A program made the translations under genes and the position numbers. This document shows, piece by piece, positions 23,392-49,293 of a stretch of DNA of 50,204 nt (its first letter is position 1; each line of letters starts with the position of its first letter). The notes beneath the pieces were generated by a model, which was not told the DNA's origin, searched no databases, and saw only the letters and a program-made list of their open reading frames with translations. The stretch lies in IMG/VR virus record IMGVR_UViG_3300042988_000913, positions 1 through 50,204 of that record; one strand, given 5' to 3'. The stretch comes from a virus.

Positions 23392-24192
23392 TTAACGTGG
23401 TCCAAAAACACCATCTCGTGGTTGAATTACTTGACGATTGGTATTGGTTCCATCCTCTTTCTTTTCTTCCTTAAACATATAGTATTCGCGAGCTAAATGA
23501 GCTGAATACGGTGCTCTTTGTGGAACTTTTTTATTAGTCATGAAATCAGTCTTATTTACAATACGGACTTCATGCATTAATCTATTTACATAATAAAATG
23601 GTGTATACAAATATCTTACAGAATAAATACTGCCTCTGTTTAGTTCTTGGTTGTATCCAGGTCTATTGCCTATCCATTTAATTTTGCCATCTACAATAGT
23701 ATAATCGCTATCTGAATATTTAACGCCATTTTCATCATAAATAGATTCAACTTTAACGGCTAGGTAGTTTAGTTTATCTATTCCAGTTATATTGGCTTCT
23801 ACCTTTTGCCCGGCAGGAACCAATACAGCACAGCTTGAGATATAGAATCTATCAAAGCTTTGAACATATATTTCATTCTTCGTGCCGTCATAATATCTTG
23901 GAAATGTAACATTTACTACGCTACCGTCTAGTAAGCCTAAGTCAGTTAACTGAGCAGACGCTGGGTTATTGGTAAACAAAACTGTTATGTCGCCTACGCA
24001 TTCATAAATATAACCGTTTGTGCAATTACCGTGCCCATCATGTCCACCTCTATGGTCCATTACGTCAGTAATACCAATTGGACAAGGAATAGAGCGCCAA
24101 TGAGTCATTTTAACTCCGTTTTGGGAGATAAATTGGTCTTGGGCGTCTAAATCTAACCCTATTTGCTCAAATGGTATTTTAATATCGGCCAT
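23392..24192 (-). CDS. Beta-rich virion protein
   Basis: The 266-residue protein is predicted mostly beta. It has a Cys/His-rich N-terminal part (THWRSIPCPIGITDVMDHRG followed by HDGHGNC) and barrel-like strands (YIYECVGDITVLFTNNPAS). Its C-terminal tail is charged and likely flexible (EEKKEDGTNTNRQVIQ). Its start shares TAATG with the holin-like gene stop. Cysteines and histidines near residues 30-60 could bind a metal. Position suggests a neck, connector or baseplate part. No family is recognised. Confidence 0.55.
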   Translation of the reverse strand: MADIKIPFEQIGLDLDAQDQFISQNGVKMTHWRSIPCPIGITDVMDHRGGHDGHGNCTNGYIYECVGDITVLFTNNPASAQLTDLGLLDGSVVNVTFPRYYDGTKNEIYVQSFDRFYISSCAVLVPAGQKVEANITGIDKLNYLAVKVESIYDENGVKYSDSDYTIVDGKIKWIGNRPGYNQELNRGSIYSVRYLYTPFYYVNRLMHEVRIVNKTDFMTNKKVPQRAPYSAHLAREYYMFKEEKKEDGTNTNRQVIQPRDGVFGPR

Positions 24193-24477: not shown

Positions 24478-24804
24478 TTAGCTCTCCCTGAGTATTGTAT
24501 TCAATAAGTCAGTAACCTTATCCCATGTTGGGAATAAGTGGCTAAACATCATTGGGTCAAAAGTCTCGCTTTTGGACAGTTCATCTAATACAGTGTCTGG
24601 AAACTTCTGGACCGCTAATTGACGAGCAAATCCCCTATGAGGACCGGAACCAAGAATCATTATCCCTGTATTGTCATCATTTTTAGCAACTATATTGAAC
24701 CCGCCCTTTGTAACAAATTCGAAAACGGGCACACCATTGCTCATTCCAATTTTCTTTGGTGGTTTCTTAGGGTCTAATTGGTCTTTGGTAATCTGAAGTT
24801 TCAT
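24478..24804 (-). CDS. Small protein coupled to kinase-fold gene
   Basis: The 108-residue protein begins inside the ATGA overlap with the stop of the kinase-like gene. It has a compact beta domain (NGVPVFEFVTKGGFNIVAKN, then TGIMILGSG) and a helical C-terminus (ARQLAVQKFPDTVLDELSK). Another kinase-fold gene in the window (42006-43985) is also followed by a small protein. That suggests a paired partner, though the two partners are not obviously related. Function unknown. Confidence 0.6.
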   Translation of the reverse strand: MKLQITKDQLDPKKPPKKIGMSNGVPVFEFVTKGGFNIVAKNDDNTGIMILGSGPHRGFARQLAVQKFPDTVLDELSKSETFDPMMFSHLFPTWDKVTDLLNTILRES

Positions 24805-26798
24805 TGCTTACTCCCAAGTACAAGATTGTTAGTAAAGAATTTTCTGATAAACTCAGATTTAGGTCCTGAATAATTCTTGACTTCAAGCAATCTATCCAAT
24901 ACAGGTCCTGGGTTTATTTGGAATTTATTAAGCAATTCTACTAACTTAGTTTCATCAACTAAATATAGCCAATGAGCTAATGAATCTTCGACTTCATGGC
25001 TAAGTGTAGGTAGGACATCCATCTTGGATTCGGGCGTTAATTCCTTCCACTTTCTTGCGGAAAATACCCTTAAATAAAATGGAACCCATGATTTTGGGTC
25101 TTTAGCTGGATTAAAGCTTGGGCCAGCAAATGCAGAGCCTGCGTCAATAAGCTTTAAATTCCCATATTCATCAATCATGATGTTTCCGCCATGTCTATCT
25201 GGGTTGCCTAATACAAAGTCTAATATGGCCCATTTGTACAATAATCCATTATTTACGTATTTAGAGAATTCATTGCGTAAATCAACGGTCTTATCTTTTC
25301 TTATCTCTTCTATTGACTTAAAGTTGCCAGTAAAGAACTCAATAGCCGCTACTTCTTGCCCATCTAGAGTAATTAATGCTGATTTTGGAATATATCTGCT
25401 TAATCCAAATAACTTGGCAGCTTCATTAAAGGCAACTTCCCTTCTTGAAGCTGAGGCCGCTTCTTCTGTTACACCCCAAGCCTTACTTGGCTTTCCAGAG
25501 CCTGGTTTTAAGAACCAAATGGTATTAGTTACAGTATCCTTCATTAGCGCGGAGCCTTTGCAGTGTTTTCCGTCTAATTCAACTGGATAAACCTTATTGT
25601 CCTTAAATGCCTTTTGAATTGCTGTAGATACTTTCTTATATTCAGAGAATACTGGCTTAACTATACGCGGAATGGACGAAACGTTCATTTCGGACTTACC
25701 AAATGATTGAATTTGTAATAATTTAGCCAAAATATCTCTATTACTTTCATTTACTTCAATTCTATGAGCCGCTAGCGCAATTGCTACATAATCGCCTTCA
25801 TAATCTATTGTAGCATTAATTATATCTTCTTCTGTTGGGATATAATTATTTGCCATAAATTTGGCTGAATTGAATTCTGGAGATAATATAAGCCCAGAAC
25901 TGGCCATAATGAAGGCCTTCTTGTAATCTTCTGGGGTTGGCTCCCATTTCATTAAGTTATTAATCTGCTCTACTTCAGTTTTGTGCAAATCTCTGGTAAG
26001 CCAGTTATTTGTAGCCATGTTTGCAGCGTATTGTAGATGCTTATGCCCTTCTTCCATATTTCTATGGAATTGTTCTGGGTCATTTCCTGTTAAATGGAAA
26101 AATTCCTGCTGCTCTTCTGGCGCGGCTTGCATGTAGTCAATAATGCCATTTAATTGAGCATGGTGCCATGTTTCTGGTTTAGCTGGGTCAGCTGTACCAA
26201 TGTCTTTTTGATATTCATGCCATTGTTGTGCAGCTAATTTTGAATCATGTGGTAAAAATCCATATAAATTTCTACTTAACTTAAAGGCAGGGACTTTCCC
26301 TAGACTTACTGGCAGTTGTTTAAAATCAGAATAAACAATAGGAAGGGCTCTATCTGGGTCACCAGTATTTACTTTAACAGGGGAATTTTGCCAAGCTACC
26401 ATTGCTTTTTTGCCATCAAAATCATTTAAATTCGGCAAAGGCCTTTCTAGTTCATTTTGGTCATTTGCTTCTGTATTTGCTGCCCACCAAAAAGTTTCTT
26501 GTGTATCATGGTCTATATCAGAGATAGGGAACTCGCCTCTATCGTGTGCATTTTGGCGATTATTCTGAGAGGCAACAAATGTTCTATTTGTAGATTCGAG
26601 ATGGGTCTGGCCTTCAGGATATAGGGATTTGTCTTGAATAAATCTATTGCCTTGAGTTCCCTGGGGGTCTTGTTCTTTTGGAACTACATGACTTACGTCA
26701 GCATAAGCGTCTCTTAATACAGCATCATTCTGCTCATTGGCTGCATTTTCTGCATCATTGGCTGGCCAGCCCTTTTTCATTTCTTTTTCTTTGGACAT
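24801..26798 (-). CDS. Virion-cluster kinase-fold protein (PI3/4K- or HipA-like)
   Basis: The 665-residue protein has a low-complexity polar N-terminus, then a helical region. Its C-terminal kinase-like domain (about 400-600) shows all expected landmarks. Lys431 lies in TIWFLKPGSG and Glu454 in SRREVAFNEAAKLFG. The catalytic loop is LGNPDRHGGNIMID (Asp534, Asn539). The metal-binding Asp552 lies in LKLIDAGSAF. The GNxDRHxxN loop is shared by PI3/4-kinases, HipA and FAM20 proteins. All catalytic residues are present, so activity is likely. It may phosphorylate phage or host proteins; packaging is a guess from its place among structural genes. Confidence 0.75.
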   Translation of the reverse strand: MSKEKEMKKGWPANDAENAANEQNDAVLRDAYADVSHVVPKEQDPQGTQGNRFIQDKSLYPEGQTHLESTNRTFVASQNNRQNAHDRGEFPISDIDHDTQETFWWAANTEANDQNELERPLPNLNDFDGKKAMVAWQNSPVKVNTGDPDRALPIVYSDFKQLPVSLGKVPAFKLSRNLYGFLPHDSKLAAQQWHEYQKDIGTADPAKPETWHHAQLNGIIDYMQAAPEEQQEFFHLTGNDPEQFHRNMEEGHKHLQYAANMATNNWLTRDLHKTEVEQINNLMKWEPTPEDYKKAFIMASSGLILSPEFNSAKFMANNYIPTEEDIINATIDYEGDYVAIALAAHRIEVNESNRDILAKLLQIQSFGKSEMNVSSIPRIVKPVFSEYKKVSTAIQKAFKDNKVYPVELDGKHCKGSALMKDTVTNTIWFLKPGSGKPSKAWGVTEEAASASRREVAFNEAAKLFGLSRYIPKSALITLDGQEVAAIEFFTGNFKSIEEIRKDKTVDLRNEFSKYVNNGLLYKWAILDFVLGNPDRHGGNIMIDEYGNLKLIDAGSAFAGPSFNPAKDPKSWVPFYLRVFSARKWKELTPESKMDVLPTLSHEVEDSLAHWLYLVDETKLVELLNKFQINPGPVLDRLLEVKNYSGPKSEFIRKFFTNNLVLGSKQ

Positions 26799-31042: not shown

Positions 31043-31828
31043 TCATTTCTTTGTATAGACGAATTGTTCATTATAGATGTTCTGGACTCTATCTTTAAGC
31101 AGATTTAAACCCATTTCTTTGCTATTATGAATAATTGCATCAAATAATGAAGCACTGATGTCGCTAAGTTCCGTCTCAGATTGATGCGTACTTTTAACTA
31201 CATCATTGCGGCTCTCTATTTTCCATACTTTACTACCCAATAGTGCCATGTTTACTACTTCATTTCTAAATCTAGCATCGGTGATTATAATAAACGGACT
31301 ATAATCTCTTGAATCCGTCCTAACAAGACCGTCAGTTTGAGAATATTTGTATCCACCAATAAGCATTTTTTTAATAACATCTTTAGCATAATTTACCCAA
31401 ATGTCAGGATGGACACTTCTTCCCCATTCTGTACCTAAAGTTTGTAATGCTATTCTTGGTGTTAATACTGGCTCATTTGTTAGTTTAACAAAAATATCAT
31501 TTCTTAGAGAATTTATAGCTGCAGCGAGGTTTTCATGCTTAAATACTTCAGCTATTTCTTGAAATAATGGTTTTTGAAAAATATTTCTATTAATTTGATA
31601 CCATGCTTCTTTAGCGGTTTCCTTGTCTGAAAACCTAGGCTCTATTTCATTACGTTTATGAGATGGTCCCCATAGTTGTTCATCTGAGAAGCCAAAGATG
31701 TTTTTAGCTATTCTTTTTAATGGATCAGCAAAGGCTATAGTTTGCCCATTTGATACCTCTGTAAGCATCTTGCCTACAGTATCCTTGCCAACCCCAGCAT
31801 TTCCAACTAATGTAATTACTGGAATCAT
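31043..31828 (-). CDS. Deoxynucleoside monophosphate kinase
   Basis: ATG 31828 overlaps the ThyX stop as ATGA, so the 261-residue form is preferred to a GTG three codons earlier. It has a P-loop GNAGVGKDT near residue 10, a lid-like basic segment, and a later IITDARFRNEV strand that resembles the second half of T4 gp1-type dNMP kinases. It converts dNMPs to dNDPs. With ThyX and the IMPDH/GMPR enzyme it forms a nucleotide-supply unit. Length matches T4 gene 1-like kinases (about 240 residues). Confidence 0.75.
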   Translation of the reverse strand: MIPVITLVGNAGVGKDTVGKMLTEVSNGQTIAFADPLKRIAKNIFGFSDEQLWGPSHKRNEIEPRFSDKETAKEAWYQINRNIFQKPLFQEIAEVFKHENLAAAINSLRNDIFVKLTNEPVLTPRIALQTLGTEWGRSVHPDIWVNYAKDVIKKMLIGGYKYSQTDGLVRTDSRDYSPFIIITDARFRNEVVNMALLGSKVWKIESRNDVVKSTHQSETELSDISASLFDAIIHNSKEMGLNLLKDRVQNIYNEQFVYTKK

Positions 31829-32490
31829 GTATTCCACCCCAATGCATTTAATGTATGTGGGAAATGTACTGGTAATATTGTAGTTATTATACTATTTGCA
31901 ATATCTGAGTGTTCCTTTTGAGTTCCATTAGCCCTTCTTAGGTCTAGGTAATGAATCCAGCTGCGTAGACTGCCCTTCATATATAGTCTGGTAGACGTAT
32001 TTAGTGGGAGGAGGAATCTTGCTTGTTCCTTAGCTATGCCCTTGGCAATTGCTTCATTATATAGATTAAATGATTTATCCCATACCTGCATTTGAGCTTC
32101 GATAAACCACTCTTTGTCTGATTGCGACATATCATCTATAGAGTTCTGTCTATTCTTTGTGTCTTGACGACGAGCTTCGTATTGTTCAAAATTCGTAACC
32201 CCTGAATATCTTTGGGAAAATTCTGAAAATACAAAACTTCTGTGACGAAGTATTTGCGCAGCAATTGCCCTACTTGTCTCAATTTCAACAGTAAAGTCCA
32301 CCATTTCTAATGGTGACCAGTGTTTATTAGCAATGAGATACTTTAATAACTTAGGTGCGGTTTCTAAATTGTCTTGATTTTGTGGAGATGAAACTCTCCC
32401 TACATAACAAATTAAATCCTCTGTACTAAGTTCTAATCCATTGGCGGTAGTTATTAACGGCTTAGTAATACTTACAATTTTAGTCTTCAT
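31825..32490 (-). CDS. thyX: Flavin-dependent thymidylate synthase ThyX
   Basis: The 221-residue protein carries the ThyX signature RHRSFVFSEFSQRYS (RHRx7S) near residue 82, which binds FAD and dUMP. Supporting segments include SPLEMVDFTVEIETSRAIAAQ before it and LLPLNTSTRLYMKGSLRSWIHYL after it, a standard ThyX region. It methylates dUMP to dTMP using methylene-tetrahydrofolate and FAD. The start overlaps the stop of the split-enzyme C-half gene as ATGA and the kinase follows with the same overlap, so the three are translationally coupled. Confidence 0.93.
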   Translation of the reverse strand: MKTKIVSITKPLITTANGLELSTEDLICYVGRVSSPQNQDNLETAPKLLKYLIANKHWSPLEMVDFTVEIETSRAIAAQILRHRSFVFSEFSQRYSGVTNFEQYEARRQDTKNRQNSIDDMSQSDKEWFIEAQMQVWDKSFNLYNEAIAKGIAKEQARFLLPLNTSTRLYMKGSLRSWIHYLDLRRANGTQKEHSDIANSIITTILPVHFPHTLNALGWNT

Positions 32491-33107
32491 TTACTCCCTT
32501 TCAATCCGTGTGGGTGACCTTCTTCATTTCCTGAAGGAGTTACTTGTAGTATTTTAACCTTATTTCTGAATTCAGACAGATTTGTAGCTCCAGTATAGCT
32601 AAGTGCTGAGCGTAATCCTCCACAAATTTGGTTAATAATATCGCCAACTGGCCCAGTTACTGGCTTCATCATCGCGACTCCTTCTGGAGTATAGTCATTT
32701 GATAGATTTTCATCAAAATCAAGACGTGCTTCACGACTTGCCATACCTCGATAAACCTTTTGTCCTTGAATTATTTGACCTGGAGTCTCAAAGCTACCTA
32801 CAAGCATCCCACCTAGCATTACTGCATCAGCGCCGCAAGCAAGGGCTTTAGCTACATCTCCGCTTTCTCTACATCCACCATCGGCTATTAGGTCGAATTT
32901 GAATTCCTTCTTTAAAGCGGCTATATCAACGATAGCTGATAATTGTGGAACTCCATGGCCTGTGACGCGACGCGTTACGCAGCTGGAATTGTGGACAACA
33001 ATTCCTTCAATGTTATATGTATGTGTTTTTTCTACAGTAAGGTCGTATACTTGGCCATTAAAATCAAACTTTTTTATGTTCACTACCGGCACTAATTTGA
33101 ATTTCAT
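32487..33107 (-). CDS. C-half of split-intein IMPDH/GMPR: IntC plus C-extein
   Basis: The 206-residue product has two parts. Residues 1-40 are the split-intein C-fragment: VYDLTVEKTHTYNI matches block F, and IVVHN is a canonical splice end with penultimate His and terminal Asn. Residues 41-206 are the C-terminal part of the enzyme and begin SSC, where Cys is the catalytic residue. The next motifs are HGVPQLSAI, DLIADGGCRESGDVAKAL and GADAVMLGGM, ending with CGGLRSALSYTGA. After protein trans-splicing the active site loop GIGPG-SSC is restored. AAGGA lies nine bases before the ATG. Its start overlaps the endonuclease stop by 44 bases. Confidence 0.9.
   Translation of the reverse strand: MKFKLVPVVNIKKFDFNGQVYDLTVEKTHTYNIEGIVVHNSSCVTRRVTGHGVPQLSAIVDIAALKKEFKFDLIADGGCRESGDVAKALACGADAVMLGGMLVGSFETPGQIIQGQKVYRGMASREARLDFDENLSNDYTPEGVAMMKPVTGPVGDIINQICGGLRSALSYTGATNLSEFRNKVKILQVTPSGNEEGHPHGLKGSK
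32988..33107 (-). mobile_element. Split-intein C-fragment (IntC)
   Basis: It covers 40 residues and ends in HN, followed by Ser+1. The partner IntN is encoded at 34161-34460, beyond an endonuclease gene. The order IntN gene, homing endonuclease gene, IntC gene is that of fractured genes. Confidence 0.9.
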
Positions 33108-34110
33108 TATAAATTCCTTTAATTATTTCAACTTCTTTTAAAAAATCAGTTTTTCTACTTTTGGGTTCTTCAACTCTATATAAAACAAATCCAAGATCTT
33201 TAGCTAATAATTCTTTAATTTTGTCATTTTTATTAGTCTTTATTTTATGCCAATAAAAGCCATCATATTCTATAAGTAGACAATTGTCTATCAGACAATC
33301 ATAAAGGTATTTGCCAATTCTATATTGATGAATAAGTTTTTCGCCAAACACCTTTAATAATTCTTCCTTCAGTTTGAGTTCACTTTTAGAAACGAACTGT
33401 CCTTGTTGTTTTCTTAATGAAATCTCTAAAAAACGCTCATTACTGCAAACGTATTTTATTAAATATCTTCTCAATGTTCTTAAATCAATTTTATAATGTT
33501 CTGAAAGACTGCTTATAGTTTCTGGACTATTTTTATATTTTTCAAATATCTCTTTTAATTTATCAAAATCTAATCCTTGTTTTTCTAAAAAGTTCAAATC
33601 TTTAGTTAATACAGTCTTGGGCGCTAATTCTTTTAGTTTAGTACTCAATTCCATACGAGTTTTTTCTGTATGATGTTTGCCAAAAAAAGGATTTTTTCTG
33701 CCCAGCATAGTTATTTTTAGTTTTTTGACAATTTTTTCTTTAGTTTCTTTTGTATGATGTTTACCATAAAATGGATTTTTATCTCCAAATAAATCCTTTT
33801 TGGCTAATGACATTTTTTCTAAACTTTCTTTTGAATGTTTTTTGCCAAAAAATGGATTCTCTGTATATCCACGACATGTAAAGCACAAATATTTTTTTGT
33901 AGATTTTCTTATATGATAAGTTAGAGCTGCTGTCTTAATGATGTTTTCTTTATTACATAATTCACAAATAATTTTAAGTGTTTTATCTTTTAAGTCTTTT
34001 AAATTAAATTGCTCATCTTTAGTCTTTAATACAAAAATGTTTTTATCTTTTTCTACGGCTATTATAATTTGTTCATCTATTTTTGATTTAAAAGCAATAT
34101 CAATATTCAT
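33064..34110 (-). CDS. Vsr-like (EDxHD) homing endonuclease inside the fractured gene
   Basis: I give ATG 34110 (348 residues). A TTG at 34116 with AAAGGA six bases upstream is a strong alternative. The protein has an N-terminal Cys knuckle region (CELCNKEN, CFTCRG). Three NUMOD3-type repeats follow (ENPFFGKKHSKES, KNPFYGKHHTKET, KNPFFGKHHTEKT), as used for DNA recognition. Then comes a helix-turn-helix-like stretch and a C-terminal nuclease. The nuclease reads SELKLKEELLKVFG, then LYDCLI, then LIEYDGFYWHK and ND, the E-D-x-H-D pattern of Vsr-related homing endonucleases. Its last 44 bases overlap the IntC gene. It would cut intein-free IMPDH/GMPR alleles. Confidence 0.85.
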   Translation of the reverse strand: MNIDIAFKSKIDEQIIIAVEKDKNIFVLKTKDEQFNLKDLKDKTLKIICELCNKENIIKTAALTYHIRKSTKKYLCFTCRGYTENPFFGKKHSKESLEKMSLAKKDLFGDKNPFYGKHHTKETKEKIVKKLKITMLGRKNPFFGKHHTEKTRMELSTKLKELAPKTVLTKDLNFLEKQGLDFDKLKEIFEKYKNSPETISSLSEHYKIDLRTLRRYLIKYVCSNERFLEISLRKQQGQFVSKSELKLKEELLKVFGEKLIHQYRIGKYLYDCLIDNCLLIEYDGFYWHKIKTNKNDKIKELLAKDLGFVLYRVEEPKSRKTDFLKEVEIIKGIYNEIQISAGSEHKKV

Positions 34111-34111
34111 A

Positions 34112-34148
34112 TCCAATACCAATCCTTTAAATAAAGATTGGTATTGGA
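34112..34148 (-). promoter_or_regulatory. Perfect 13-bp hairpin over endonuclease ribosome site
   Basis: Arms TCCAATACCAATC (34112-34124) and GATTGGTATTGGA (34136-34148) flank an 11-base loop. On the minus-strand RNA the AAAGGA ribosome site of the endonuclease spans the loop edge, and the start lies in or just past the 3' arm. The 5' arm includes the CAATACCAATCTTTA motif, so the copy is itself part of a palindrome. Confidence 0.65.
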
Positions 34149-34157
34149 CCTGGATTA

Positions 34158-35132
34158 TTAAAGCATTTCTATAAGCAAATAATTATCATTTAATTCTCTG
34201 GCCTCTACCCACTCAGCCAGTTCATGTAAATTTTCTTCATTAGCTATATTTTGATATTTTTTATCTAAAACAAGAAATTCATGATTTTTAGTGCATTTAA
34301 TTCCATTTATTTCTATTAATTCTTCATTTTTTTCTTGAATAATAGTATTTATAACACGATTAAATGTTCCATCATGTGACTGAACCTTGTCTCCTATTTT
34401 TATATCACTTATTTGCTTTAAACCATCACTCGTCTTGACCAGATTCTCTGAGGTGAAGCAACCCGGCCCGATTCCAACTTTAATGGCTATAGCTCCAGCT
34501 TCTAATAGTCTCCTTGCGCCTTCATAAGTGGCAACATTGCCAGCAATTATTTTAGCTTGTGGATGGTATTCTAATAATTTTTTAATAGTATCTACCATCA
34601 TCTTGCAATCGCCGTGAGCAATATCTATACAAATTGCATCAGCTGCTGCCCACTGTGAATCTTTAGGTTGTTCAACTAAGTAATTTACCCCAAGCATAGC
34701 TTGTTCTTCGCCAACTCCAATACTTGGAATAGCGACTATACCCTTGGACTTAAGGGTCGCTATTGATTTAAAAACTTCTTCTGGGGTTTGGTATCTATGT
34801 AAAATACCTAATCCGCCTGAATTGTGCATAGCTATTGCCATTTCAGTACCGGTTACGGTATCCATGTTTGCTGAAATGATTGGATTTAAAAAGTTAAACC
34901 CCAATAGTGTGGTAGAAATGTCTACATTCTTTCTGGAAGTTACTTCGGAGTATTGTGGAAGCAGTAAAACATCGTCAAAAGTAAATGCTAATCCCATGCC
35001 CCAGACTTCTTTTGGAGGTTCGGTTACATAACATGATTGATGTTTCTCTTCTAATACCACTTCAACCTCTACTACTTCTTCTTTGGGTTTAAAACCCAGA
35101 AACTTCAAAAAATCTTTAAATGACCAAGCCAT
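34158..35132 (-). CDS. N-half of split-intein IMPDH/GMPR: N-extein plus IntN
   Basis: The 324-residue product has residues 1-224 of a (beta/alpha)8 IMP dehydrogenase/GMP reductase without CBS domains. The N-terminal 40 residues are an extra acidic stretch. Family motifs include AFTFDDVLLLPQYSEV, NPIISANMDTVT, GGLGILHR and the Asp in DIAHGD. Residue 225 (Cys) begins the intein N-fragment, whose 100 residues end in a stop. The cut falls in the active-site loop KVGIGPG, right before the catalytic Cys. A host-type promoter (TGG-TATAAT, 35162-35170) and a terminator just upstream isolate it from the capsid genes. IMPDH versus GMPR specificity is undecided. Confidence 0.88.
   Translation of the reverse strand: MAWSFKDFLKFLGFKPKEEVVEVEVVLEEKHQSCYVTEPPKEVWGMGLAFTFDDVLLLPQYSEVTSRKNVDISTTLLGFNFLNPIISANMDTVTGTEMAIAMHNSGGLGILHRYQTPEEVFKSIATLKSKGIVAIPSIGVGEEQAMLGVNYLVEQPKDSQWAAADAICIDIAHGDCKMMVDTIKKLLEYHPQAKIIAGNVATYEGARRLLEAGAIAIKVGIGPGCFTSENLVKTSDGLKQISDIKIGDKVQSHDGTFNRVINTIIQEKNEELIEINGIKCTKNHEFLVLDKKYQNIANEENLHELAEWVEARELNDNYLLIEML
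34161..34460 (-). mobile_element. Split-intein N-fragment (IntN)
   Basis: It covers 100 residues starting with Cys. A block-A-type opening (CFTSENLVKTSDGLKQISD) is followed by IGDKVQSHDG and a block B with TxxH (KCTKNHEFLVL). The fragment then ends at a stop codon in NDNYLLIEML. No endonuclease domain is embedded. Confidence 0.9.
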
Positions 35133-35161: not shown

Positions 35162-35170
35162 ATTATACCA
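35162..35170 (-). promoter_or_regulatory. Extended -10 promoter of nucleotide-metabolism operon
   Basis: TGG-TATAAT on the minus strand lies about 30 bases before the split-enzyme start, right after the terminator of the decoration-like gene. It probably makes this island independent of late transcription. No clear -35 was seen. Confidence 0.6.
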
Positions 35171-35213: not shown

Positions 35214-35245
35214 CGCAAAAGAAAAGGCCCCGTAAACGGGGCCCT
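35214..35245 (-). terminator. Rho-independent terminator after decoration-like gene
   Basis: On the minus strand, GGCCCCG pairs with CGGGGCC around a TTTA loop and is followed by TTTTCTTTTG. The stretch between the gene stop and this hairpin (35246-35294) holds repeated ATTAGG/ATTAATTAG units and no gene. Confidence 0.85.
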
Positions 35246-35753: not shown

Positions 35754-37271
35754 TTAGATTTGTTTTAGTAGCCATTTTTTGTGCCCATAGTCTTCAATTC
35801 TGTATAAAGGCTTTAGATAGTTGAATATCTTCAATCCGATTAATCCGCTATTTGCTTGGTCCTTTTCAGTATGCGGAATGTCTGGGAATTGAGCTAATAT
35901 TCCTGGGTCATTAATTCTTCTACACTTCCATCTCCAAATACGTTGTTTCCCGTCTGTATACCAATAACTTGGATTATTTTCTTGTATTAATACCCCATTT
36001 AACTCTTTATAGACATTACCAGTTGATAGGCGGTTATTGCTAAATGTAATTACTTCATTGAAATCATTAAATACCGCTTTTAATAACCTACCTGCCCCTC
36101 CGTAGACGTGATAATCATAATCTGTGGCAAAACGACATATTTCAATTTCTGAATTATGATTTTTCCGTATACTCATGCATGTAATTAGCTTATCTTCTTT
36201 AAATAACCCATAAGCAAACATTGCCGAAGAGTGTCCATCTAGGTGGTTTTTATCAAAGAATGGCTCTATAAGCTTATTTTTATGTATTTTACGTAATTCT
36301 AACTTAGAAGCTCTTAGTCTATTTTCTTTTTGAGGCAGTATTCCTAATCTATGGCGAATCATTGACTTAATTAATGATTGTTTCTCGGGGTTATTCCATT
36401 CATCTTCAAATATAGCTAATAATTTAATTCCATTATCTTCGCATATTTTAAATTTATTTAAATGCCTGTTTCTAATATCACCAAAATAGTCGCTATGGAA
36501 CAATAATCCATTAAACTCAATCCCAAATGATTTACTGGGAATATAAATATCTAATTCTAGATAATTATCAGTTTCTTTATTTAATAATACACTTCGGTCA
36601 TTTAAAACAACATCATTTGCTAATGTTTGTATGTAATTAAATACTTCAATCTGACCCTTACTTGGACCTACATTTGCGCACTGTGGACACCATTTGCCTT
36701 GTTGTATTGAATTAGGTATTGCTTCCCACGAATGTCCAGCGCTGCACTTGACAGAGACATATTCTTTACTTTTTGTATATGGAGTAAGTAGGATGCCTCC
36801 ATTTCGCTCAACTATACTTTGTATCTTATCTTGCCATGAATCAAAATTACCTAATTTAGAATCTGTTGCTGCCTTATTAGCCTTAACTTGATGATTCTTC
36901 TTCCATTCTTCGGCAGCGCCTGATTCTATGTATCTCTTAATTCTATTCTTGATAAATTCTTCTTTATTTCCATTTTCTTCAAGATTCTTCCAGAAGTTCT
37001 TAGACCTATTTGAGGCGAATTCTTTCTTTTCTTCTGTATTCCAAATCTTTGAAAGTTTTTCAGCTTTTCTGGACTTTAGTGGAGAATTATTGATAGCATC
37101 TTTAATGATTTTATTTAATTTAGCTTTATCTTTATACTTTCCATTGCGTTTTACTATATGTATTGGTATATTAAGTTTTTCGGCTATTTCTTTAGAAGAA
37201 ATTCCTTCATCCTTCATTTTTTGAATATCATTTCTTCTGATTTCAATTTCTTCTTTAGTCAATTTAGCCAT
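35754..37271 (-). CDS. Free-standing Vsr-like homing endonuclease
   Basis: The 505-residue protein sits between the capsid gene and the decoration-like gene, a common site for invasive endonucleases. It has an N-terminal helix-turn-helix (EGISSKEIAEKLNIPIHIVK), Lys-rich helices, and a zinc knuckle (KCSAGHSWEAIPN then WCPQC). The nuclease core reads YLELDIYIPSKSFGIEFNGLLFH with ND-like residues after it, related to the core in the IMPDH-locus endonuclease. The C-terminal part (FFDKNHLDGHSS; HVYGGAGRLLKAVFND; KQRIWRWKCRR) is a further domain I do not identify. The ATG lacks a good ribosome site. Confidence 0.8.
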   Translation of the reverse strand: MAKLTKEEIEIRRNDIQKMKDEGISSKEIAEKLNIPIHIVKRNGKYKDKAKLNKIIKDAINNSPLKSRKAEKLSKIWNTEEKKEFASNRSKNFWKNLEENGNKEEFIKNRIKRYIESGAAEEWKKNHQVKANKAATDSKLGNFDSWQDKIQSIVERNGGILLTPYTKSKEYVSVKCSAGHSWEAIPNSIQQGKWCPQCANVGPSKGQIEVFNYIQTLANDVVLNDRSVLLNKETDNYLELDIYIPSKSFGIEFNGLLFHSDYFGDIRNRHLNKFKICEDNGIKLLAIFEDEWNNPEKQSLIKSMIRHRLGILPQKENRLRASKLELRKIHKNKLIEPFFDKNHLDGHSSAMFAYGLFKEDKLITCMSIRKNHNSEIEICRFATDYDYHVYGGAGRLLKAVFNDFNEVITFSNNRLSTGNVYKELNGVLIQENNPSYWYTDGKQRIWRWKCRRINDPGILAQFPDIPHTEKDQANSGLIGLKIFNYLKPLYRIEDYGHKKWLLKQI

Positions 37272-42005: not shown

Positions 42006-43985
42006 TTAAACCCCATAGGCTTTATTTGCAAACAATAAATCAGTTATTCTATCATTGCCAAGCGCTGAAGCTGACTGGGCAGATAGTAGTCTTTGAACCG
42101 CTTTCTTAGCTATTTCTGGATGAACCTTTGCTTCATCTAAATGAGCCTTTAGTTGAAATGGGTCCAATGACATCAACCATTCACGAGCTTCTGGGTGAAT
42201 TTTCTTTTCATGAACATTCTTTCCCTTCATTCTTGCATAATCTTCTAGATAGGAGGGGATTTCTTCTTTATTGTAGTCAAATGTAAGTGCATTATCAATT
42301 AACATCAGCTTATTGGTTCGCTTGTCAATCATGTAATTAGTTCTGTTTCTGTCTCTATTTCCTAAAATACTGTCCATCAAAGCCATTTTATCTAATTGAC
42401 CAGTAATTCCTTCTTTGTGAAGTATAGGTCTTGTGTCTGCTGATGGAGAATCTGGATGATAGTGAACAGCTTCTGGATGAACTTCCATTGCTGAATGTTC
42501 TTCTCCGCTATCTGGGTGCTTAAATAAAGCTGTTGTCGGTACATTATCTATACCAAAGAATCCTCTAGATAGATTATGAAATAAAACCTCTCTAGAGGCG
42601 GTAGATGGCTTTAATTCCTTTTCTGGCTCATCTTCATAGTCTACATTGGGCTTGACGTGAACAGTCTTTCCGCCATTGTTCTTAAACCAGCCATAAACAG
42701 AATCTTTGTTCTTTGAGTACCAAGTTGAAGTATGTGGAGTGCTTTCTGGTTTTTTATTTAAATCAATACCATGGACTAAGTCTTTTTGTTCATTAAACTT
42801 TGTGTGCTCAAGACTTACATGCTTATTACTATCTACGAATTTGGGTTCGTGTAATTCTTCTGGGTGAGAAAGGATTACGAAGTGTGAACCTTCTTGCTTT
42901 CTATTGATTTTATTTATATTAACCTCAGATTGGTCACTTGCTTTTGGTGGCTTGACGTGCACATGAGTGTCGTCTACATGCATTAATTTAAGCTTACTGC
43001 CCTTAAATGGACCAGCAACTAATTCAATCTCTCCAGGCTTAACTGTTTTATCTTTATACTTAACGCCTTTTTCCTCAAAAGTCGGTGGTTGGTCTTCATT
43101 TTTTCTGAATTGAATTTCTTCAACCATATCTGAGTACTTATCCAGATACTTATCAGCAACGTCTGGTAATGAATGCTTTACGAATTTCTTTAAATATTCT
43201 CTAAATGGTTCTCTACCATCATAGTCTCTTGCAGCTGCAAGTAATTGATTTTTAAAGAATTTTCTTTTAATTATATCTTCTTTTTGTAAAGCTGAACCAC
43301 CAGTTAATTCACTTGGAGCGGCGTTGTAGCTACCTAATGTCAAGGTTTTTGACATCGGGACGTCAATTAGAACGTCATATTCCATTTCATTAATTGCAAT
43401 ATATTTTTCATTCTTTTCAATATCTAAACCTACTTGGGCTGGTGTAGGTTCGGACACTAAAGCGCTGTAACTTGATTTATTGCATGGTTTAATAGTAGCA
43501 GCTACTCGTCTGGCTATTGTTTTAACTAAATAATTACCATTTCTATCGATAGTACTGCCTTCAATAGAATACCTAATAACTACAGGAAGACCTCTCCTAT
43601 GATAGTGCTTAATCATAGCAGCTGCATCTTTTGCATTACTGTGGTCTTCTTTGTCGAATAGCTCAGCTGCACCATATATAAATGGTAGGCGTATTTCGTT
43701 CCAAAGCTTTAACTCTCGTTCGCTTTCACAATCATTTTGTGTAAAAATCTTCTTAGCAAAGATAATTCTGCCTATAATTACAGAAAATGTAGGGAAGTTT
43801 TTCTCAGAGGCGTGTTCAACATTTAATACACCATCTTCATTTAAGGAGGAGATGTCTGTCCCTTTAACATCAATGACCTCTCCTGAAGTATCAATGGCTT
43901 GACTTGCAAATGCACCATCTATAATAGTTCCGTGCTCTTGAAACCTAAGGGCTTCTTCGATTTTTGGGTGAATCTTGATTAACAT
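42006..43985 (-). CDS. Prohead protease fused to a kinase-fold domain
   Basis: The 659-residue protein directly follows the portal, the standard slot for the maturation protease. Residues 1-180 have a His-Ser protease pattern: His58 in LNVEHASEKNFP and Ser140 in VVIRYSIEGST. Strands around IARRVAATIKPCNK match XkdF/HK97-type prohead proteases. Residues 217-237 repeat the capsid N-arm motif (LGSYNA, GSALQ, ED). The C-terminal half (about 440-600) is a kinase-like domain, with SREVLFHNLSRGFFG (Glu466), the loop LGNRDRNRTNYMID (538-554) and LMLIDNALTF (560-569). A Gly-rich middle (KOW-like, 314-345) links them. Protease-kinase fusions are unusual. Confidence 0.78.
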   Translation of the reverse strand: MLIKIHPKIEEALRFQEHGTIIDGAFASQAIDTSGEVIDVKGTDISSLNEDGVLNVEHASEKNFPTFSVIIGRIIFAKKIFTQNDCESERELKLWNEIRLPFIYGAAELFDKEDHSNAKDAAAMIKHYHRRGLPVVIRYSIEGSTIDRNGNYLVKTIARRVAATIKPCNKSSYSALVSEPTPAQVGLDIEKNEKYIAINEMEYDVLIDVPMSKTLTLGSYNAAPSELTGGSALQKEDIIKRKFFKNQLLAAARDYDGREPFREYLKKFVKHSLPDVADKYLDKYSDMVEEIQFRKNEDQPPTFEEKGVKYKDKTVKPGEIELVAGPFKGSKLKLMHVDDTHVHVKPPKASDQSEVNINKINRKQEGSHFVILSHPEELHEPKFVDSNKHVSLEHTKFNEQKDLVHGIDLNKKPESTPHTSTWYSKNKDSVYGWFKNNGGKTVHVKPNVDYEDEPEKELKPSTASREVLFHNLSRGFFGIDNVPTTALFKHPDSGEEHSAMEVHPEAVHYHPDSPSADTRPILHKEGITGQLDKMALMDSILGNRDRNRTNYMIDKRTNKLMLIDNALTFDYNKEEIPSYLEDYARMKGKNVHEKKIHPEAREWLMSLDPFQLKAHLDEAKVHPEIAKKAVQRLLSAQSASALGNDRITDLLFANKAYGV

Positions 43986-46929: not shown

Positions 46930-49293
46930 TTAAATGGAGAATAACAAGCCTCCGGGCTTGCCAACTACCTTAACTTCTTCATCTAATCCAGTATATCTTT
47001 GTATCCAACCCTCATTTGGGTCCTTTTCAAATAACTTATTCTTTTGGTATCCGGGGACTATATTGATTTTATTAATTGGGACATTTTGACATAAATACCG
47101 CAATGCGTCTAATTCGTCATCATCTTTGCTATCTGGCTCGTCCGTTAACTTACCGGCTTGGTCAGTTTTCCAGTGATAGTTAATTATCTTATCAGCTAAT
47201 AATTCACATCCTGGGTCGTCTTTTAATAGGAACATAGAAGGTGGCAATCCGCCACCTGGCATTATACGTTTTCTTGTGTTTTCAATACCCAAAAGGACGT
47301 CTTTACGGAAGTTAACCATTCTAAAGCCAGCCATTCTAAATGACTTAACGTCTGATGGATAAGCATTATCTGGATAAATGACTGGAGTAAGTGGATTTAA
47401 CTTCTCTCTACAAAGTTCTATTCTTTGCTGTAATTCAAGGCCTTTAATAGATATTACGTCAATTATATATAAATTATGACCAAGAAGTGCTGCGGTAACA
47501 ACTGCGAAATTATGAGTAAATCCCCAGTCCAATCCACTATAGAAGATTGCTCCCATTGATTTCAATAACTCTATTAATTGAGCCTTATTGGTAGATGCTG
47601 GGTATGTTTCGCCAGTAATTCTCTCTGCCATTTGTGAAGCTGGGATAAGATGGGTGGGTTTTGAGAAATTTGGGAAGATTTTACCTTCTGAAGATGGTTC
47701 CCAACTAAGTAACTGAGCTTTAGCTAAGTCTACAGAGATTGATTGGAATAATGGCTGTACGGCATGTATCTTCTTTAATAGCTTAGATTTAGAGGTTTGC
47801 TGAGTAGCTAAGCGTCCTTGACAAGCTGCAAAGAGTTTGCATTTAGCCAAGCAACCCTGAAATCCTTCTGTTACGTCATATTGTTCCTTTTCTTTAACAG
47901 AAAGAAGTTCATATTCTTCTTTTGAAATAGCTCTTAATTGATTCTCTGAATAATAAATGGGTATTTTGGGTAATTCTGGTAAATGTCTTGATGATGGACA
48001 AGCTTCTGTAACATCTATGATATTCCAGTGCCTGATATTTAGGCCTGTTGTATGAGCTACATCTATTTCTGACTGAACCAATCCGAACGAATATTTTCTT
48101 GTTGAAGTAAGGAAGGTCATTGGCAATTCGCCATTATCTCCCATACATGGAATCATCTTAGATTCAGCATATGCAGCTGGGTCGGCTAGATCTAATTCGT
48201 CGCAATTCTTGACCAAAACTCCATTTGCAATGAAGTTGTGATTATCCTTTACCGTAAAGTCAATTACCCAACCTGGGTCTATTTTTGTAATATTTTCAAT
48301 TTCTATTGCATTTTTTGAATCATTTTCATCTAAAAATAGGACTTTATCATTTTTAGATAATTCTGAAACCTTCTTGAATCCATTTGGAGACATCAATGGA
48401 TGCTCTTCTGTACAAATTATTTTTTTACCATTTTTAAAATTTACTTCATATCTATCTTGCCATGTGCGACTTGTGCCTATTATTGGTTTAAATTCAAATT
48501 CACCTGTATTTAAATTAAACGATAGAGCTTCTATGTTTTTTAAAGGATTTTGCGTAAATCCTTCAAATTCACTGTTACTACCTGGAGACTTGCCTATTAA
48601 TCTATTATAAACACGTCCAGCATTGGCCCAAATCCTATCTTTTTGATTTTTAGGGCTCTTAATTAAAATTTTACTTTTTTCATCTACGCAAACGAACATC
48701 GGGACGTGGAGTCCATTGCAGTCAGCAACTGTAGCTATAACTATTTTAATCCAGTTAGTTTTTTCCTCATACCTCATCTTCTCAGCTTCGTTTAGCTTTC
48801 CATATTCAACTGGAGATATGGGTCTACCTCCGGCTGAATCTACGTATTTAGTTATTTCAAGAGTCCTTTTGTTCTTTGAAGTCAAGAATTCTCTAATAAT
48901 AGGTCGCTTTAGATAGCCTTCGATGTATCTTTGACAGTTTTTGGCTTGTGTTTCCAGTGCGGCCATGTGACCAACGTTTCTGCCTAAATGAAATAAACAT
49001 AGCGTTTCTAGAATTGATGCTGAAACAGTCTTATAACTATCTCTAGCTGCGAATCCTAAGATTCTAGTAAAGTTTTCGTCATTACCTGCTCTGGCTTTTG
49101 AGTAGATTTCCCAAATCAAATCCATAGGATTGGAGTTGCTTGGTGGATGTCTTGTGTTATTACTACAAACTGTTACATTAGGCAAGTCCAGGCCTAAATA
49201 GACCTTAATCCACTTATGAAGATGCTCCTTCGTTTCGCAAGGGACGAATAGTGCTGCTCTGAGTATGTCTTCTTGGTTAATATTATTTGCCAT
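46930..49293 (-). CDS. terL: Large terminase (TerL) interrupted by a mini-intein
   Basis: The precursor is 787 residues; removing the 162-residue intein leaves 625, a normal TerL size. The ATPase has a degenerate Walker A FAARDSYKT (81-89) and Walker B IVIATVA..PMFV-CDELD, the intein sitting exactly between Val201 and the Cys of CDELD. The nuclease has the RNase-H-like acids Asp589 (GLDWGF), Asp642 (IYPDNAYPSD) and DDELDALRY near 726-733. A Cys cluster (C481, C485, C491) in CLAKCKLFAAC may bind a metal. TerL packages DNA through the portal. The gene follows TerS by two bases. Confidence 0.93.
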   Translation of the reverse strand: MANNINQEDILRAALFVPCETKEHLHKWIKVYLGLDLPNVTVCSNNTRHPPSNSNPMDLIWEIYSKARAGNDENFTRILGFAARDSYKTVSASILETLCLFHLGRNVGHMAALETQAKNCQRYIEGYLKRPIIREFLTSKNKRTLEITKYVDSAGGRPISPVEYGKLNEAEKMRYEEKTNWIKIVIATVADCNGLHVPMFVCVDEKSKILIKSPKNQKDRIWANAGRVYNRLIGKSPGSNSEFEGFTQNPLKNIEALSFNLNTGEFEFKPIIGTSRTWQDRYEVNFKNGKKIICTEEHPLMSPNGFKKVSELSKNDKVLFLDENDSKNAIEIENITKIDPGWVIDFTVKDNHNFIANGVLVKNCDELDLADPAAYAESKMIPCMGDNGELPMTFLTSTRKYSFGLVQSEIDVAHTTGLNIRHWNIIDVTEACPSSRHLPELPKIPIYYSENQLRAISKEEYELLSVKEKEQYDVTEGFQGCLAKCKLFAACQGRLATQQTSKSKLLKKIHAVQPLFQSISVDLAKAQLLSWEPSSEGKIFPNFSKPTHLIPASQMAERITGETYPASTNKAQLIELLKSMGAIFYSGLDWGFTHNFAVVTAALLGHNLYIIDVISIKGLELQQRIELCREKLNPLTPVIYPDNAYPSDVKSFRMAGFRMVNFRKDVLLGIENTRKRIMPGGGLPPSMFLLKDDPGCELLADKIINYHWKTDQAGKLTDEPDSKDDDELDALRYLCQNVPINKINIVPGYQKNKLFEKDPNEGWIQRYTGLDEEVKVVGKPGGLLFSI
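48205..48690 (-). mobile_element. Cis-splicing mini-intein in TerL at Walker B
   Basis: Residues 202-363 of the precursor. It opens with Cys202 (CVDEKSKILIKSP). Block B IICTEEHPLMS has TxxH. Block F is WVIDFTVKDNHNFIANG. It closes with VLVKN followed by extein Cys364. The penultimate residue is Lys, not His, a tolerated variation in some inteins. There is no endonuclease domain (mini-intein). Exact excision rebuilds PMFVCDELDL. Confidence 0.95.

Follow-up and report, generated by a model that had tools for sequence, protein, structure and literature searches.

How a phage gene can be broken open at the active site of its product by a mobile element, and how such an element may hold its own endonuclease in check, is the question raised by one locus in IMGVR_UViG_3300042988_000913, an IMG/VR virus record whose positions 1 to 50,204 were analysed (this whole stretch of 50,204 nucleotides is called the window). 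On its minus strand, a gene of the IMP dehydrogenase/GMP reductase (IMPDH/GMPR) family is broken in two, and a homing endonuclease gene lies in the break. A homing split-intein cassette, consisting of the N-terminal intein half (IntN), the endonuclease gene and the C-terminal intein half (IntC), has probably invaded the enzyme loop and brought along an endonuclease that appears to be locked by an RNA hairpin. Direct support exists for the anatomy of the locus, the empty site, the mobility footprint and purifying selection in relatives, and the non-random nature of the hairpin. The hairpin over the ribosome site of the endonuclease gene is the most novel element and goes beyond what a preliminary description of the locus had claimed.

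Anatomy of the split gene and the empty site in relatives

In the order of transcription, a terminator and a promoter are followed by the gene for the N-terminal half of the enzyme (N-half), the hairpin, the endonuclease gene, the C-half gene, thyX and a deoxynucleoside monophosphate (dNMP) kinase gene (Table 1). Both enzyme halves lie where the preliminary description had placed them, and its view of a fractured IMPDH/GMPR gene, in which split intein halves flank an endonuclease gene, is confirmed by the coordinates, the Pfam matches of the halves and the splice residues. Together, the two halves cover the whole IMPDH profile, and the split point is the active-site loop carrying the catalytic Cys. 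The N-half junction reads ...KVGIGPG/C (slashes mark the junction or insertion site), followed by IntN and a stop, and the C-half junction reads ...VVHN/SSCVTR...; the extein and intein ends and the intein lengths of 100 and 40 residues had all been given correctly. All residues of a class 1 split intein are present: Cys1, CTKNH as the TxxH block B, VVHN as the His-Asn end, and Ser at position +1. As in other fractured genes, the break lies at a conserved site, IntN and IntC are located on separate genes, and a free-standing endonuclease gene, whose end overlaps the IntC start by 44 nt, is found between them. In the PDB, sequence comparison recovered only distant inteins, among them the gp41-1 intein 6qaz as a weak match of IntN. 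Every NCBIfam equivalog model for IMPDH or GMP reductase stayed below its cutoff for either half and for the intact L003 gene, and judged by its sequence the enzyme is assignable to the IMPDH/GMPR superfamily only. Searches of isolated-phage records gave no endonuclease match, and the N-half matched IMPDH/GMPR genes without this intein or unrelated proteins; bacterial and archaeal genomes yielded 17 partial matches.

The endonuclease contains three NUMOD3 repeats (Pfam, E 3e-16) and a C-terminal EDxHD/Vsr-like domain with the motif EYDGFYWH (EDxHD profile match, E 0.02). In the family alignment, D271, G284, H288, K299 and E315 are invariant and E281 is near-invariant. An AlphaFold2 model of the nuclease domain, with predicted local distance difference test values mostly of 89-95, was matched by Foldseek to the catalytic domain of I-Bth0305I (3r3p; probability 1.00, TM 0.63 on the target, E 0.02). 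According to this model, the endonuclease has an EDxHD/Vsr-like nuclease fold. The likeness to I-Bth0305I is drawn for the nuclease domain only and comprises the fold and the conserved acidic/His motif; the two proteins share only about 17-19% identity, and I-Bth0305I is intron-encoded.

An empty site is found in two IMG/VR contigs, L272 and L273, whose major capsid protein is 81% identical to that of the window and which share with it the gene order capsid, small protein, enzyme, thyX and kinase. Unlike in the window, this interval holds no endonuclease genes, and the enzyme gene is uninterrupted (361 amino acids). L272 and L273 read ...ALKVGIGPG/AVCTTRRVTGHGVPQ..., compared to ...AIKVGIGPG/SSCVTRRVTGHGVPQ... 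in the window after removal of the intein; since the enzyme of the two relatives is unbroken and collinear at the site, the insertion is clean to the residue. A comparison with an intein-free relative had been suggested in the preliminary description, and L273 provides it with the loop GIGPG/AVCTTR. The residue following the site is Ala in L272 and L273 and Ser in the window, in keeping with the nucleophile that the intein requires at position +1. Codon identity between the window and L273 along the enzyme revealed no clear edge of co-conversion.

The hairpin over the endonuclease ribosome site

The leader between the IntN stop and the endonuclease start is spanned by a hairpin that includes the Shine-Dalgarno sequence and persists in a folding context of 450 nt. 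The free energy needed to open the ribosome site and start codon amounts to 23.3 kcal/mol, which makes this start the tightest of 339 starts; none of 312 control starts is as high, and the leader differs from its shuffled versions with a p-value of 0.005, the minimum possible with 200 shuffles. The same tendency is seen among the relatives, where endonuclease starts have a median opening energy of 8.4 kcal/mol (27 loci) compared to 4.6 kcal/mol for 312 other starts of the same loci (Mann-Whitney p 6e-8). Within the same operon, endonuclease and C-half starts require 8.9 and 3.7 kcal/mol, respectively (26 pairs, Wilcoxon p 2.8e-7; the starts of a few loci were set by hand). When the dinucleotide shuffles of 20 representatives were combined by Fisher's method, a p-value of 1e-12 was obtained. 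These p-values are guides only, as the loci are related to varying degrees. The stem sequences differ among lineages, all folding over the endonuclease ribosome site, and the C-half starts are open. A third near-copy of the 13-nt hairpin arm, with one mismatch, lies 10.7 kb away in the window at 23436-23448 (minus strand), and three matches were obtained in none of 100 shuffles.

Hairpin control of homing endonucleases is known from T4-type systems such as I-TevI, segB and Aeh1 mobE (PMC2988022). In the I-TevI and mobE design, the ribosome site of the long transcript is hidden in a hairpin, and likewise the window and many relatives possess a stable hairpin that would sequester this site. The second part of the design, a late transcript without the 5' arm, is matched by a late-promoter-like box in many relatives and not in the window. 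Of 20 representatives, 8 have the box [TC]ATAAATA no more than 70 nt upstream of the endonuclease start, compared to 7 of 312 control starts (Fisher p 2e-7) and 4.5% of shuffles. If transcription began about 6 nt past the box, the transcript would be easier to open in all ten boxed loci, with a decrease from 7-18 to 0.3-5.4 kcal/mol. The T4-type locked endonucleases are intron-borne or free-standing, whereas the gene studied here lies inside a split-intein break. Based on the folding predictions, the hairpin appears to lock endonuclease translation, as in T4.

Several points weigh against this reading. The whole case is built on sequence and computation, and the start codons are predictions. 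The window leader contains no [TC]ATAAATA (TATAAATA-type) box, and the late-promoter reading presupposes a T4-like late sigma factor and a spacing rule between box and start. In addition, the split loci L005, L083, L096 and L101 lack a hairpin, and the hairpin of the window has no close relative carrying it. Instead of acting as a translational lock, the hairpin might terminate transcription, serve as a processing site or be an inverted repeat that arose by chance. The missing box, which would complete the T4 design, and the near-copy of the arm, due to which the hairpin may derive from a dispersed repeat, speak for this explanation; however, no U-tract follows the hairpin, and in several lineages this ribosome site is covered by folds of differing sequence, with the C-half starts left open, so that it is considered unlikely.

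Mobility and the range of intein states at one site

Evidence for mobility comes from related pairs in other phages; the window copy lacks a close relative with the cassette. Along such pairs, identity peaks over the cassette and declines to either side of it. Both intein halves reach about 87-100% identity in four of the five pairs, and the identity of the flanking enzyme DNA mostly drops to 60-90%. L044 and L043 are 97-100% identical over both intein halves, with enzyme flanks of 66-97%, L079 and L084 are 99-100% identical, with flanks mostly of 85-97%, and in L005 and L100 cassette segments mostly reach 83-95% compared to about 60-80% nearby. L045 and L048 have, in addition, a further and separate region of near identity 2-3.5 kb upstream. 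The synonymous substitution rate (dS) is 0-0.05 in IntN and IntC compared to 0.34-0.75 in the exteins (L045/L048, L044/L043 and L079/L084), and the ratio of nonsynonymous to synonymous rates of the endonuclease is 0.13-0.26. Such sequence comparisons indicate purifying selection on the intein halves and the endonuclease of the relatives. The identity peak supports the view that in the related pairs the host gene is older than the cassette it carries, as a footprint of homing, and also supports a joint mobility of both intein halves in these relatives. The earlier suggestion that the endonuclease mobilises both halves at once is thus backed indirectly by four pairs of other phages; in the fifth, L083/L077, the tract of high identity ends before IntC. 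Alternatively, the endonuclease gene could merely be parked between the halves and home elsewhere, the split having arisen separately. Free-standing endonucleases often adjoin their target, and the window harbors a second one at 35754-37271, but many lineages have endonucleases of one general architecture at this junction, and in four of five pairs the identity peaks include both halves, which makes this rather improbable.

A profile built from five N-halves retrieved 70 viral loci, from which near-copies were removed, and an intein is present at the same position in about 47 other phage loci. In 28 of them, the intein is split and accompanied by an endonuclease gene or a candidate for one (in L100 the frame is interrupted), and 11 are split with an endonuclease remnant or none. 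Five loci encode contiguous fused mini-inteins (L047, L051, L068, L076 and L090), two encode large contiguous cis inteins (L088 and L099), and one, L087, has a three-piece gene with a middle extein of 10 residues. At L087 (1816-4537), the middle gene of two split inteins consists of IntC1, SACTTRFMTG and IntN2, an extein to be spliced at both ends; the second break holds an endonuclease-like gene, HNH-like by eye, and the loop of its relative L096 is unbroken at this second site (RFLTG/CGIPQ). In L374 (3551-6029), a split intein occupies a shifted site in the same loop, GIGNGGG/C, where the +1 residue may be the catalytic Cys. L093 (5535-5831) has an in-frame TGA after four IntN residues and no detectable C-half, which makes it a decayed or recoded copy; recoding was rejected, since read-through lengthened the frame and yet no C-half was found under any code tried.

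Two near-identical cassette pairs document endonuclease loss by deletion: in L079 compared to L084 with a 4-nt microhomology (AGCA), and in L044 compared to L043, where the hairpin and most of the endonuclease gene were lost together. In the fused intein of L047 (...LIELIAE-MKFKL...), a Met is kept where IntC genes start, which is consistent with re-fusion at the sequence level. In the intein and extein trees, most deep forks are weak, and the labels split, no-endonuclease and cis are no more clustered than shuffled labels, so that direction and number of the state changes are not fixed. Some pairs are well supported, for example L090 (cis) and L091 (split) in both trees.

That the window holds a decaying relic, with a dead enzyme and halves that no longer splice, is highly improbable. 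Degenerate relatives exist (endonuclease remnants in L044 and L079, and the L093 copy), but the splice residues, the catalytic Cys and both enzyme parts of the window are intact, the promoter, terminator and operon mates are conserved in L273, and the intein halves and the endonuclease of relatives are under purifying selection. It is hardly conceivable that a contiguous intein with an internal endonuclease was broken by sequencing or assembly errors, a doubt raised in the preliminary description: the seven contiguous inteins named above do occupy the site, but independent contigs repeat the same stops, own start codons, own Shine-Dalgarno sequences and a similar endonuclease/C-half junction, the EDxHD/NUMOD3 endonuclease differs in type from what is inserted in the two large cis inteins, and the three-gene layout recurs in about 28 other phage loci, next to a syntenic relative with an unbroken gene.

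Operon context, proposed mechanism and meaning

The ATGA coupling of thyX and the kinase gene described earlier holds if the kinase starts at 31828; a second ATGA overlap, at 32487-32490 between the C-half gene and thyX, had been omitted. The upstream terminator was recovered by a scan. The promoter claimed earlier is an extended -10 element without a good -35 element, which was missed by the promoter scan; the identical 11-mer, TGTGGTATAAT, precedes the enzyme gene in L273.

Table 1. Features of the fractured gene and its operon in the window, in the order of transcription
Feature	Position	Strand	Basis
Intrinsic terminator upstream of operon	35224-35245	-	Terminator scan
Extended -10 promoter element of operon, TGTGGTATAAT, TATAAT	35162-35167	-	Sequence
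N-half gene	34158-35132	-	Pfam IMPDH positions 1-197, E 6e-44
N-extein, N-terminal part of IMPDH/GMPR-family enzyme, ends KVGIGPG	34461-35132	-	Pfam IMPDH 1-197; collinear with unbroken L273 gene
IntN, exactly 100 amino acids, Cys1, block B CTKNH	34161-34460	-	Alignment with relatives
IntN stop codon	34158-34160	-	Sequence
RNA hairpin, 17 bp, pairs endonuclease Shine-Dalgarno, abuts its start codon	34112-34148	-	Minimum free energy z -6.0
Shine-Dalgarno AAAGGA of endonuclease gene, within hairpin	34123-34128	-	Sequence
Free-standing homing endonuclease gene, 348 amino acids from ATG	33064-34110	-	Pfam, PHROGs homing endonuclease, AlphaFold2 and Foldseek, family alignment
Shine-Dalgarno AAAGGA of C-half gene, accessible	33115-33120	-	Sequence; opening energy of start 3.7 kcal/mol
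C-half gene	32487-33107	-	Pfam IMPDH positions 178-345, E 2e-47
IntC, exactly 40 amino acids, ends VVHN	32988-33107	-	NCBIfam intein_Cterm above cutoff
C-extein, starts SSC (catalytic Cys third), remainder of enzyme	32490-32987	-	Pfam IMPDH 178-345
thyX, FAD-dependent thymidylate synthase	31825-32490	-	TIGR02170 above cutoff; ATGA overlap with C-half
dNMP kinase, from ATG at 31828	31043-31828	-	Pfam DNMK

Further observations concern the surroundings of the operon, all on the minus strand. The second free-standing homing endonuclease gene (phrog_3339) is located between the major capsid and small protein genes and is absent from L273. A large terminase-large-subunit-like protein carries an in-frame intein-like insert of about 160 residues ending VKN/C (48205-48690), and L272 and L273 show an IntC-like match at the corresponding place. 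Two large proteins (42006-43985 and 24801-26798) each have a PI3/PI4-kinase Pfam match (E about 6e-7), which is unusual for a phage structural region.

In the proposed mechanism of a homing cassette with a locked endonuclease, the cassette would have entered a phage gene of the IMPDH/GMPR family at its catalytic loop, thereby turning one gene into two. A single transcript would carry the N-half, the endonuclease gene and the C-half, with each enzyme half translated from its own accessible ribosome site. IntN and IntC would associate and trans-splicing would join GIGPG to SSC, thereby rebuilding the enzyme. Meanwhile, the endonuclease would be kept low by translational repression, because its ribosome site is folded into the hairpin on the long transcript. 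In the boxed phages (8 of 20 representatives, the window not among them), where the box lies within the hairpin or shortly before it, a later transcript would begin beyond the 5' arm, which would release the ribosome site. The endonuclease would then cut intein-free alleles, and repair would copy the whole cassette, both halves together. The broader proposal is evenly balanced between right and wrong: that endonuclease genes in split-intein breaks are commonly RNA-locked on the host-gene transcript, a late promoter inside the lock releasing them in many phages, with fracture as one phase in a cycle of invasion, endonuclease deletion and, in some lineages, re-fusion to a contiguous mini-intein or a second fracture that gives three pieces.

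Dassa et al. reportedly described fractured genes in 2009, with a free-standing Vsr/EDxHD-type endonuclease between split intein halves, IMPDH-1 included. The halves of L043 presumably resemble the published IMPDH-1 halves closely, which serves as a lead only. IntN and IntC of the window are 47-51% and 48% identical, respectively, to the L043/L045 type, and host gene and layout of split halves plus endonuclease are the same as in IMPDH-1. The fractured genes of Dassa et al. are cited in PMC7090010 and PMC10448857, and the IMPDH-1 split intein has been characterised as fast-splicing (PMC7090010). What the present study adds to these genes is a setting among phage structural genes, an empty allele in syntenic relatives, the traces of homing seen in relatives, and the ribosome-site lock. 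In a partial coverage of the literature, no text joining a split-intein endonuclease with a hairpin lock was found; fractured IMPDH genes are already known, and the novelty, as far as checked, lies in the expression lock placed on a split-intein endonuclease.

Taken together, the fractured IMPDH arrangement is now placed in a phage, alongside a syntenic relative with an empty allele and a molecular footprint of homing, and the hairpin points to the use of a T4-type expression lock by split inteins. For I-TevI, masking has been proposed to protect RNA splicing, which cannot apply to a split intein, so that the purpose of the lock can now be tested. The many states found at a single site allow one to work out in which order fracture, loss of the endonuclease and re-fusion took place, and protein ligation gains dozens of split-intein pairs that are new.

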